From Bacteroides pyogenes (GTDB lineage Bacteria; Bacteroidota; Bacteroidia; Bacteroidales; Bacteroidaceae), in contig NZ_JACIDI010000010.1 in NCBI RefSeq assembly GCF_014196225.1, forward strand, positions 1-64,000: a DNA stretch of 64,000 nucleotides, read 5' to 3'. Positions 31,092 through 62,492 of the stretch are shown in pieces; the stretch's first letter is position 1, and each line of letters starts with the position of its first letter. A model generated the notes under the pieces. That model did not search any database, was not told the origin of the DNA, and saw only the letters and a program-made list of their open reading frames with translations. The position numbers and the translations under genes are program-made.

Positions 31092-31530
31092 GGTTATAGG
31101 AAAGGATTTGTTCCACGACAATAAAGATTCCGTAAAGCCATAGAAAAGGGATTTGTCCAACTACCTAAAGACCCCGTAAAGCCATGGGAAGGACTACGTT
31201 TCACTACAAGAAAGATTCCGTAAAATCATGGAAGAGGATTTGTCCGACTACAAGAAAGACCCCGTAAAATCATGGAAAGGACTCCGCTTCACTACAAGAA
31301 AAAACCCGTAAAGCCATAGAAAAGGATTTGTCCGACTACAAGAAAGATCCCGTAAAATCATGGAAAGGACTCCGCTTCACTACAAGAAAGATTCCGTAAA
31401 ATCATGGAGGAGGATTTGTCCGACTACAAGAAAAACCCCGTAAAATCATGGAAAGGACTCCGCTTCACTACAAGAAAAAAACCGTAAAGCCATAGAAAAG
31501 GATTTGTCCGACTACAAGAAAAACCGGATA
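31092..31530. repeat. 44-bp tandem repeat array
   Basis: The word CCGTAAA begins at 31130, 31174, 31218, 31262, 31306, 31350, 31394, 31438 and 31482, always 44 bp apart. Two unit types roughly alternate: one with GGATTTGTCCGACTACAAG, one with GGACTCCGCTTCACTACAAG, giving an 88-bp higher-order repeat. Both ends share CCGG...AGGAAA (31090-31103 and 31524-31543). Units contain stops and the period is not a multiple of three, so it is not coding. From 30841 to 31091 I see no gene. Confidence 0.9.
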
Positions 31531-31544
31531 AAGTTACAGGAAAT

Positions 31545-31667
31545 CTCTGTTCAACCGTAACAAAGCCTCTGCCCGATTCCAACAGAGCCTCTATTCAGTC
31601 CCAACAGCGACTCTGTTCAACCGTAACAAACCCTCTGTTATTTCAAAACAGCGACTCTGTTCAACCC
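31545..31667. repeat. 22-bp tandem array of imperfect palindromes
   Basis: Five full units start at 31545, 31567, 31589, 31611 and 31633, and a partial sixth at 31655. Each starts CTCT(G/A) and most end in a partial complement, for example CTCTG...CAGAG in unit 2 and CTCTGTT...AACAAAG in units 1 and 4. The array follows the 44-bp array directly. From 31668 to 31856 I see no gene. Confidence 0.85.
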
Positions 31668-54923: not shown

Positions 54924-55415
54924 CTACCTGACTATATCCTCAGGAAATTTGGCAGGCATAGTGAGCCTTTTCCATGTCTCATGATACCAAGCGTTCAGCT
55001 CGTGCCCATACAAATCTTTTTTGATAAAATACTTTAAGTACAAGAGTGTATTATCCACAATCTCAAAGATCAGTACATTATCTTTGTTATCCAGCATCGG
55101 AAGGTGAATATTTTTCTCAATGCTTTCTTTATAAGTAGTGTCGCTCAGTTGGACATACGCACCATATCCGGTAATAATAGCATCCGAACCGGGTATAAGA
55201 GTAAAATTAACAATACGCCCGTCTTCCGACAATACTTTAAATGTATTACTGGGTTTCAATTTTCCCGGCAAGTCTGCGGCTTCTGAAACGTAATGGCAGA
55301 GCTGCCATATTCCCTTTAGTTCGGCCGGTTTGAAATCTTTCTTTTCTTGGGCCTTCCCACCTGCTACCGCCAACAGCATCACTGAAAGCATGGTAAAAAA
55401 AATCTTTTTTTTCAT
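54924..55415 (-). CDS. secreted DUF4488-like protein
   Basis: 163 residues with a signal peptide ([23 protein letters not shown]), then [55 protein letters not shown] and [12 protein letters not shown]. The opening 'GIWQLC' and beta-rich pattern fit a small lipocalin-like domain such as DUF4488, which is common in Bacteroides. Function unknown. No operon partner on either side. Confidence 0.65.
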
Positions 55416-55862: not shown

Positions 55863-55972
55863 TATATATAGCCAGCACGGTAAGTATATATGGACAGCAT
55901 GGTAGACATATATGTCTACCACGGTGGGTATATATGCCTACCACGGTGAGTATATATGGATAGCAAGCCTAT
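55863..55972. repeat. 22-bp tandem array of palindromic units
   Basis: Five units begin at 55863, 55885, 55907, 55929 and 55951, exactly 22 bp apart. The shared form is (T/C)ATATAT(G/A) plus a variable part, often CTACCACGGTG. A perfect 20-bp palindrome, GGTAGACATATATGTCTACC, spans 55901-55920 across units 2 and 3. The array ends 22 bp before the stop of the next gene. From 55416 to 55862 I see no gene. Confidence 0.85.
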
Positions 55973-55993: not shown

Positions 55994-56980
55994 CTATAAA
56001 TTTCTGCTTTCCGTCCAAACTTTGTCGATCAAATACCCCTTTCCTTTCTTTACAACACCAATATTGACAGATTTGACCGATTTTCCCCAATATGTATAAG
56101 TCATTCGATAAGAACCTGTCGCCATAGGAGTGCAAATTATGGATGGAATCCAAAGCTGATCGAAGTCGAAATAATCAATTAGCAAATCATAACCGGGAAA
56201 GTCCTCATTCTCATTTGCCGATCGAATTTGCCTCAAAGCATTTTGAGAACAATATTTCGCACGCAAAGAATCCAAACGAGACGACAAGTCTACAGGCATG
56301 TCGCAATACGCTTGTACATAGGCATCATAGAATGTCTTTACAAAAGAAAGATGAGTAGAGTTATCAACAATCACTTGATGCTCTGTCCGACATAGCAGAC
56401 TATCACCGTATAAGGAACCGTGCCATTCGGGAGTGATATAATCAATCAACAACCTGCCGCCTGTTTCTCTCAGTCTTATAGGGATATTAGTGCGATCCAC
56501 AGAACCAGATGCATAACTAACCATATACCAGTTACCTTCCAGCTGTCTCACGTTGAATGTATTTGCGAAAACTTTGTCGAAATCCTGAGCACGGATGATT
56601 GGATCACTGTTTGTGGCGGAAGTCACTCTTCGTATCTTAGCTATTAAATCAGGCGTTAAGTTTGTCCGTACAAGCGTATCGTTTCTATCGTCTGCCGAAT
56701 CAGAAACGTTTATGGCATAAGAGATATAAAAATCCTTAATCATTTTTATTTCCTTCCCTTCGTGTTGCTCAACTGGCTTTGACAGATCGCCTTCAGTGAC
56801 AGACTGCCCGTAAGAAATACCGCATAAAAAGACAAACATCAAAAAGAGAGTTGCTTTTGCAGTATTGCTTTTTGTTTGCTTTGTCTTAAAAACAGCAATG
56901 CGATGATTAGATAAAAATTCCAGCAATCTCAAAGCAATGCTGGCAATTAAAAAGAATAAAAGGTTACTTAAGGCACTCAT
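55994..56980 (-). CDS. hypothetical membrane or secreted protein with DUF3828-like repeats
   Basis: 328 residues. Two hydrophobic segments lie near the N-terminus (about 5-20 and 42-57); the second (ATLFLMFVFLCGISYGQ) looks like a signal peptide, so the true start could be further downstream. Two related halves follow: FYISYAINVSDSADDRNDTLVRTNLTPDLIAKIRR and FVKTFYDAYVQAYCDMPVDLSSRLDSLRAKYCSQ, each then 'DPIIRAQDFD' or 'YDLLIDYFDFDQLW' and a beta-rich end (NWYMVSYAS; SYRMTYTYW). This duplicated pattern suits DUF3828. Function unknown. The 273 bp upstream hold no clear promoter. Confidence 0.6.
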   Translation of the reverse strand: MSALSNLLFFLIASIALRLLEFLSNHRIAVFKTKQTKSNTAKATLFLMFVFLCGISYGQSVTEGDLSKPVEQHEGKEIKMIKDFYISYAINVSDSADDRNDTLVRTNLTPDLIAKIRRVTSATNSDPIIRAQDFDKVFANTFNVRQLEGNWYMVSYASGSVDRTNIPIRLRETGGRLLIDYITPEWHGSLYGDSLLCRTEHQVIVDNSTHLSFVKTFYDAYVQAYCDMPVDLSSRLDSLRAKYCSQNALRQIRSANENEDFPGYDLLIDYFDFDQLWIPSIICTPMATGSYRMTYTYWGKSVKSVNIGVVKKGKGYLIDKVWTESRNL

Positions 56981-58760: not shown

Positions 58761-60173
58761 TTATTCAAACGACCCCATACGGAGATAGTTTACTTCGGCT
58801 TCGGTCAAATAGCGCCAATCGCCGCGACGCAAACCTTTCTTTGTCAAACCGGCAAAGAAAACGCGATCGAGCTTTGTTACTTTATACCCAAGCGATTCGA
58901 AAATACGGCGAACGATGCGATTCTTTCCGGAATGAATCTCGATGCCCACCTGATCTTTCTTTACTTCATCCGCATAGCTGATAGCATCGGCATGAATTTC
59001 ACCATCCTCCAGCTGGATTCCGGCTGCAATCTGTTCCATGTCGGCTTTCGTCAGATTCTTGTCGAGATGAACGTGATAGATTTTCTTTTTCAAGAACTTC
59101 GGATGCGTGAGCTTCGAGGCCAAATCACCGTCGTTTGTCAACAGCAACACTCCTGTCGTATTCCGGTCGAGACGTCCCACTGGATAAATACGTTCATTGC
59201 AAGCCCCCTTTACAAGATCCATCACCGTCCGGCGCTCCTGAGGGTCATCCGAAGTAGTAACCGTATCTTTCGGCTTGTTGAGCAATACATACACTTTCCG
59301 TTCGATGCTTACCGGCTCATCGTGGAATTTCACCACATCCGAACGTTTAATCTTTGTTCCCAATTCCGTCACTACCTCACCGTTCACAGACACGACTCCC
59401 GCAGTGATAAACTCATCTGCCTCACGACGAGAGCATATTCCAGCATTGGCAAGAAACTTGTTCAAACGAATCGGTTCGTTAGGATCGACATACTGTTCCT
59501 TATACTCGATCTGTTTTTTCTTGCTATATTTCGCATTCGGATCATAATCCGCCGTACGAGGACGCGGACGGTATCCGCCTTGCGAACGATCGTTGTTGAA
59601 ACGCGGACGACTGCCGCTCTCACCGTAGTTATTATTAAACCGGGGACGACGTGAACGATCGCTGCCTTCACCATAATTATTATTACCACTCAATCGCGGA
59701 CGATACGGACGGTCGCCACCCTCACGATTGAAAGAAGGACGTTGAGGACGATCGCCATACGAGCGTTGCGAACGGTCGGCCGATTCTTCATTGTTGAATC
59801 GCGGACGATACGGGCGGTCGCCACCTTCACGATTGAAGGAGGAACGTTGAGGACGATCGCCATACGAGCGTTGCGAACGGTCGTAGTCTCCTTCGCGGTT
59901 TGCATTAAACCGCGGACGATACGGGCGGTCTCCACCCTCACGATTGAAAGAGGAACGCTGAGGACGATCGCCATATGAGCGTTGCGGACGGTCGTAGCTA
60001 TCTTCGCGGTTTGCATTAAATCGCGGACGATACGGGCGGTCGCCGCTTTCGCGGTTATACGAAGGACGATTGTACCCTCCTTCTCTATTATAAGCTCTGT
60101 TACCATCACGGCCGGCGCCTTCATTCTCTTGATTAAAAGAGTCGTCGCGCCATTCTTCATTTCCTGTGTTCAT
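58761..60173 (-). CDS. RluB-type pseudouridine synthase with Arg/Gly/Tyr-rich repeat N-terminus
   Basis: The C-terminal 240 residues are an S4 domain (IRLNKFLANAGICSRREADEFITAGVVSVNGEVV) and a pseudouridine synthase with the catalytic GRLDRNTTGVLLLTNDGD. This group modifies U2605 of 23S rRNA or related uridines. The first 220 residues are a low-complexity region made of repeats of about 35 residues, each with YGDRPQR, SFNREGGDRPYRPRFN and NREGDYDR. It is strongly basic, disordered and resembles RGG-type RNA-binding tails. Typical RluB lacks such a tail. The DNA repeats are near-identical, so length may vary between strains. Confidence 0.9.
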   Translation of the reverse strand: MNTGNEEWRDDSFNQENEGAGRDGNRAYNREGGYNRPSYNRESGDRPYRPRFNANREDSYDRPQRSYGDRPQRSSFNREGGDRPYRPRFNANREGDYDRSQRSYGDRPQRSSFNREGGDRPYRPRFNNEESADRSQRSYGDRPQRPSFNREGGDRPYRPRLSGNNNYGEGSDRSRRPRFNNNYGESGSRPRFNNDRSQGGYRPRPRTADYDPNAKYSKKKQIEYKEQYVDPNEPIRLNKFLANAGICSRREADEFITAGVVSVNGEVVTELGTKIKRSDVVKFHDEPVSIERKVYVLLNKPKDTVTTSDDPQERRTVMDLVKGACNERIYPVGRLDRNTTGVLLLTNDGDLASKLTHPKFLKKKIYHVHLDKNLTKADMEQIAAGIQLEDGEIHADAISYADEVKKDQVGIEIHSGKNRIVRRIFESLGYKVTKLDRVFFAGLTKKGLRRGDWRYLTEAEVNYLRMGSFE

Positions 60174-62126: not shown

Positions 62127-62400
62127 GTACACTTCCGTTTCAAAAGCGATGCAAAGGTACGGCATTTTTTGGATCCTGCAAGTATTTTACTTATTATTTT
62201 TTCTATTTTTTTGTTTCAAGAAAAAACAGTGTTGATTTTCAGCAGAAAACAAAGTTCTTTTTTTTTGCAAGTCAATAAAGAAGTAAAATGCCACAGCAAG
62301 AAGCAGAGTGCCCACAAAGCGAAGCGCAGGTGTTTACAAAACAAAAGCATTTAAAATAAGGCTTTGCTTCGCAATAGCTAACGGATTTGTTTAATGTTTT

Positions 62401-62492
62401 ATTTCGTCTGCCGACCGTGTTTTATTCGTCTCTCGTCTGTGTTTTATTCGTCTGCCGTTCGGGAGACGAATAAAACACAGACGAGAGACGAA
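62401..62492 (-). repeat. dispersed palindromic repeat, copy B, with 29-bp perfect hairpin
   Basis: Arms 62425-62453 and 62464-62492 are perfectly complementary over 29 bp with a 10-nt loop, GCCGTTCGGG. The part 62401-62472 in reverse complement aligns to copy A at 3988-4060. It lies 37 bp after the acetyltransferase stop and may also act as a terminator for it. Confidence 0.7.

Follow-up and report, generated by a model that had tools for sequence, protein, structure and literature searches.

The unit length of tandem repeats normally differs between families. Plasmid iterons and tandem operator sites are examples of tandem sites placed about two helical turns apart. The closest described case that we found to the repeats reported here is BrickBuilt of Porphyromonas gingivalis, a minisatellite within a MITE that has a 23-nt unit, a single sequence family, leader and tail segments, and IS5-like terminal inverted repeats (GAGACC...) (PMC4596501). 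The same paper mentions 22- and 41-nt repeats for P. gingivalis strain W83 (PMC4596501). Arrays of 22-bp units in Bacteroides were not found described in open-licence papers.

The window, which is the whole 64,000-bp stretch of Bacteroides pyogenes DNA that was analysed, carries an array of this kind. The features at the locus are listed by their coordinates in the window.

55863 to 55972, no strand: 22-bp tandem array of family F1, about five units, the outer ones degenerate, consensus near TATATATGGCTACCACGGTGAG
55900 to 55921, no strand: 22-bp perfect palindrome at the array's centre, TGGTAGACATATATGTCTACCA
55994 to 56980, minus strand: upstream gene, 328 aa, weak DUF3828 match below the cut-off
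54924 to 55415, minus strand: downstream gene, 163 aa, DUF4488, start about 450 bp beyond the array

TRF reported the array at 55863-55959 with a period of 22, 4.4 copies, 77% matches and 0% indels. Stacked in register, its units are TATATATAGCCAGCACGGTAAG, TATATATGGACAGCATGGTAGA, CATATATGTCTACCACGGTGGG, TATATATGCCTACCACGGTGAG and TATATATGGATAGCAAGCCTAT, the fifth (TATATATGGATAGCAAGCCTAT) being degenerate at its 3' end, and the five 22-bp units described in the first-pass annotation were borne out by both approaches. The perfect palindrome that it had placed at 55901-55920 and measured at 20 bp is present and is 22 bp long; no other palindrome in the window exceeds 16 bp, which is 6 bp shorter. 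The dyad pattern of the F1 unit had four matches in the window, all of them inside this array, with 0.03 expected from shuffles. The stop codon of the 55994-56980 gene lies ~20 bp from the array, which sits just 3' of that gene. The terminator scan found no site resembling an intrinsic terminator (GC-rich stem-loop and T run) at the array, and an Rfam search of the window returned two tRNAs only. A phage origin of the array was rejected, with 0 matches in 50,697 phage records.

The locus was compared with its orthologue in strain DSM 20611, whose genome matches this one at about 97% identity over aligned stretches (mostly 93-99%), the basis for assigning it to B. pyogenes. The orthologue is a 145-bp segment of equal length with near-identical unit sequences. 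The palindrome is imperfect in DSM 20611, where one arm differs, and the perfection of that unit is therefore probably incidental.

Three further repeats of related period were found in the window.

31545 to 31651, no strand: second 22-bp array, with units resembling AACAGAGCCTCTGTT and no sequence relationship to the 55863-55972 array
31101 to 31525, no strand: noncoding tandem repeat adjoining the 31545 array, 44-bp period (2 x 22), with 88 and 176 as higher orders
62395 to 62457, no strand: third 22-bp array, TGTTTTATTCGTCTGCCGACCG, non-palindromic units, then a partial inverted copy to about 62491

The period scan of the window marked period 22 at three loci (31552, 55839 and 62391); apart from these it gave 44-bp loci and one locus each at periods 33, 48 and 54. 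The array at 62395-62457 and the 44/88-bp repeat at 31101-31525 are additions to the first-pass annotation, whose statement that the arrays at 31545 and 55863 are unrelated agrees with their falling into separate families. A 111-bp repeat, a period divisible by three, was also seen at 59692-60044 within a 470-aa ORF (58761-60173), and is probably a coding repeat.

The genome scan covered 1.25 Mb, representing 37% of the 3.39-Mb genome. A first period scan at a threshold of 28 of 44 gave 67 loci at period 22, whereas nearly every other period under 60 had only a few; 21, 23 and 42-46 stood out, and these partly mark the same arrays as period 22. The best-period histogram was made with a better gene caller, and loci less than half covered by called genes were classed as noncoding. 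It showed 56 noncoding loci at period 22, 10 at period 21, 10 at period 23 and no more than 2 at every other tested period (14-34), and all 56 period-22 loci belonged to the noncoding class. The idea of a shared unit length survived this check, which the first-pass annotation had named, for an excess of period 22 over other periods. Repeats of 23 bp (CATCGGCAAGGCGATGGTTCCGT-like) were observed at the contig ends C12:1-164 and C18:1-261, and the assembly probably breaks within them.

Unit consensuses were compared in all rotations and on both strands at a threshold of 16 of 22, which exceeds the maximum of 15 reached by 1,500 null pairs. The 56 arrays in 1.25 Mb formed 13 groups (sizes 17, 13, 8, 6, 3 and 2, plus seven singletons); the number of groups depends on the threshold (11 at 15, 18 at 17), and at least about 11 families share period 22. 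F1, to which the 55863-55972 array belongs, is the largest, and BLAST of this array against its own genome gave 61 matches at ~40 separate places.

Self-complementarity of the unit was significant in 12 of the 56 arrays. The mean folding z was -3.4 in the arrays versus -1.2 in intergenic controls, a result driven mainly by families F1-F3. These are palindromic or structured and several others are neither; the CGGTCCGTCACTGAGG, GGCAAGCACAACATTCC and GGTAAACTTGTACGCGG families gave folding z values near or above zero (about 0 to +1.7). A common palindrome or hairpin design is thus not general. The first-pass annotation had ascribed the same period and the same palindromic design to the two arrays it compared, and of these the period holds while the design, as a general rule, does not.

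The F1 consensus is symmetric (GGT...YATATATR...ACC). Spacings between F1 cores are not exact, with 68 at 22 bp, 38 at 23 bp and 13 at 21 bp. Complementarity at most dyad positions of the F1 units was not above column shuffles. Dyad distance 7 was a clear exception, covarying in both test versions, and a value at distance 3 in one version was an artefact produced by the pattern itself. With a symmetric consensus but few compensating base changes, the F1 sequences favour, though not decisively, a duplex, dimer-binding DNA site rather than a hairpin.

In co-directional gaps, 31 of the 40 arrays lay nearer the 3' end of the upstream gene (roughly p = 0.0005 versus an even split, estimated by normal approximation). 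Divergent gaps held 10 of 68 arrays compared with about 15 predicted by length, so that arrays there are fewer, yet present. The 3' bias could reflect promoter avoidance instead of a 3' function. An exclusive terminator role was unsupported by either gene orientation or the terminator scan.

DSM 20611 had a density of 50 period-22 loci per Mb, the same as this genome. The two strains differed by one unit at C2:304760 and C4:21919, by three units at C2:240338 and by roughly six at C4:113856. The 22-bp period and the unit-step copy differences are those of a minisatellite, the differences being at other loci and the 55863 locus being equal in length in both strains. Unit copy-number differences of this kind are usable as strain-typing markers.

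Six genomes of other species were sampled at 62-200 kb each, three from Bacteroides (200 kb each) and three from other Bacteroidales families. The Bacteroides samples contained 5, 8 and 2 period-22 loci (25, 40 and 10 per Mb), with a mean of 0.14-0.19 loci for each of the other periods per 200 kb, and their cores were mostly different (GTTTATAATAAAC, GAAAC...GTTTC and others). Period 22 was the commonest in these samples; in the weakest, G026, it shared first place with 23 or was surpassed by coding periods alone. The sample with 2 period-22 loci also carries 23-bp loci. No period-22 locus occurred in 262 kb (100, 100 and 62 kb) from the three other families, against an expectation of about 6-7 from the Bacteroides average of ~25 per Mb; this absence is suggestive, the sample being small. 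BLAST found F1 in 4 of the 36 other Bacteroides genomes searched and in 0 of 24 genomes of other families, and F1-like 22-bp arrays recur in other Bacteroides. From the excess of period 22 over ~13 unrelated families and in other Bacteroides, a shared length constraint can fairly be inferred. This much stands of the length-setting mechanism proposed in the first-pass annotation; no specific protein, replication or recombination step emerged from the analysis.

A different set of repeats was observed near three times this length, comprising 49 intergenic direct-repeat loci 64-67 bp apart in 1.25 Mb (e.g. C4:12285-12380, C2:255329-255420 and C2:84414-84500). The excess near period 66 was only partly harmonic, since 27 of the 38 loci at 65 and 32 of the 55 at 66 were not near a 22-bp array. 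In each, two copies of a block, typically 25-38 bp long, flank a unique segment of about 27-41 bp; block length varies and the total stays near 65-66. These repeats are strain-polymorphic and dominate among the longer indels between the strains. The change may be an insertion in one strain or a deletion in the other, since slight differences between the two copies of a block are frequent. The three other Bacteroides samples showed no 64-67-bp peak, and the set appears to be specific to B. pyogenes.

Six of the 49 unique segments matched elsewhere in the scanned 37% of the genome, compared with 4 of 400 control 35-mers. The insert events yielded a seventh source, and all seven lay inside called genes. 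A whole-genome pattern search of four further segments gave a second copy for one. By analogy, these loci would resemble integration of self DNA in the CRISPR manner at sites outside CRISPR loci; against this reading, the sole cas1 found adjoins an array of period 77, not 66, and block length varies. No link between the 64-67-bp repeats and the 22-bp arrays is claimed. The cas1 gene (L174, C8 near 142026) and a likely cas2 adjoin a CRISPR array whose repeats are 47 nt long and whose period is 76-77; the end of a large protein that may be Cas9 lies next to them. A second CRISPR array, C2:936-2244, has a 36-bp repeat (GTTGTCTATACCACTCAAACTAGTGGCATCCACAAC) and period 66, the genome's only cas1 found being on the other contig (C8). 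Cas13b is known from B. pyogenes and would fit the C2:936-2244 array.

One length over many unrelated families, in several species of one genus, would point to a physical or enzymatic ruler on intergenic DNA. The mechanism we prefer is helical phasing, in which two turns per unit would set tandem sites on one face of the DNA. AA/TT autocorrelation with the arrays masked peaked at 10.7-11.3 bp, a broad estimate, and 22 bp is therefore close to two turns. We tentatively propose, at a little below an even chance, that the 55863-55972 array is a member of a large intergenic minisatellite class in the sampled Bacteroides, with a unit near 22 bp under a functional two-turn constraint. The unit-step differences between strains suggest that slippage or unequal recombination would lengthen and shorten the arrays. 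A functional constraint would hold the unit at two helical turns, with successive dyads on one DNA face, and its most likely purpose would be the cooperative binding of dimeric proteins or of a nucleoid factor. For F1, binding would be to duplex DNA and not to a hairpin. If the ruler is the helix, the arrays would mark places on the chromosome of a major gut genus that are built for assembling proteins on a single DNA face. That Bacteroides have a sequence-independent mechanism, structural or enzymatic, which sets or maintains 22-bp intergenic repeats of two turns across unrelated families is possible, though we lean against it.

Several points count against helical phasing. The unrelated sequences would need several proteins or a reader of DNA shape. 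Spacings of 21 and 23 bp are common in F1, units in several families have no dyad, and F1 distance 7 covaries. The helical period is known from a broad estimate, the scan took in 37% of the genome, and the outgroups were sampled on a small scale.

An unlikely alternative, to be taken seriously nonetheless, is that the arrays are functionless and that Bacteroides replication or repair makes tandem duplications preferentially of 22 bp. Length is all that the unrelated families and the non-palindromic units have in common, and the second preferred spacing in B. pyogenes, 64-67 bp, appears in the strain-to-strain indel spectrum as well. However, an alignment of two strains over 258 kb showed clear enrichment for indels of 64-67 bp (16 of 183) but not for indels of 21-23 bp lying outside existing arrays. 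No present-day bias to 22-bp duplication was therefore seen, which weakens a mutational origin.

Common descent from one ancestral 22-bp array, with local homogenisation letting the sequence drift while the period stays, appears quite doubtful. Neutral indels should widen the period during drift, and F1 already has many 21- and 23-bp spacings. Intermediate forms are absent for most families, although an F2-like stretch does grade in register into a diverged variant (C12:12340-12612) and F1 is present in further Bacteroides species.

A role in RNA, with transcribed arrays forming 3' hairpins (terminators or mRNA stabilisers) and hairpin geometry giving the 22 nt, is very unlikely. It would agree with folding more stable than in the intergenic controls and with the tendency of arrays to lie 3' of genes, but not with the unstructured families, the lack of general covariation in F1, the 10 arrays of 68 in divergent gaps or the lack of an intrinsic-terminator match at 55863-55972. 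Transposase-driven spread of a REP- or MITE-like element, which the occurrence of F1 at ~40 genomic places might call to mind, is hardly credible, as no Y1_Tnp gene was found in the genome, the inspected F1 array flanks have no common terminal element and a clean empty site was seen in 0 of 15 orthologous loci compared.

Like REP and BIME sequences with RAYT transposases, the 22-bp arrays include short palindromic intergenic repeats in many copies; they differ in their strict tandem period, in having no Y1 transposase and in the many non-palindromic families (PMC3733652). The search of the genome with PF01797 (Y1/RAYT transposase) gave no match, the control being positive in 5 of 14 genomes, and a RAYT-associated REP origin was rejected because no such gene was found. 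The REP tag (GTAG or CGTC) was not consistent, some F1 units having GGTAG/CTACC and others GGTGA, and in most families the unit is not significantly palindromic. No BrickBuilt-type end (GAGACCWTTGCA, at most 2 mismatches) was found near 55863-55972, and the count in the window was at chance level. BrickBuilt is likewise an intergenic short-unit tandem array with many loci per genome, in the same order, whereas the arrays described here have a 22-bp unit and about 13 families, and IS5-like termini were not seen (PMC4596501). CRISPR arrays share regular spacing and partly palindromic units, but the 22-bp units are contiguous and have no spacers, and the genome's true CRISPR arrays have periods of 66 and 77. 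Unlike plasmid iterons and tandem operators, the 22-bp arrays have no known initiator or repressor, occupy many chromosomal loci and comprise many unrelated sequences.
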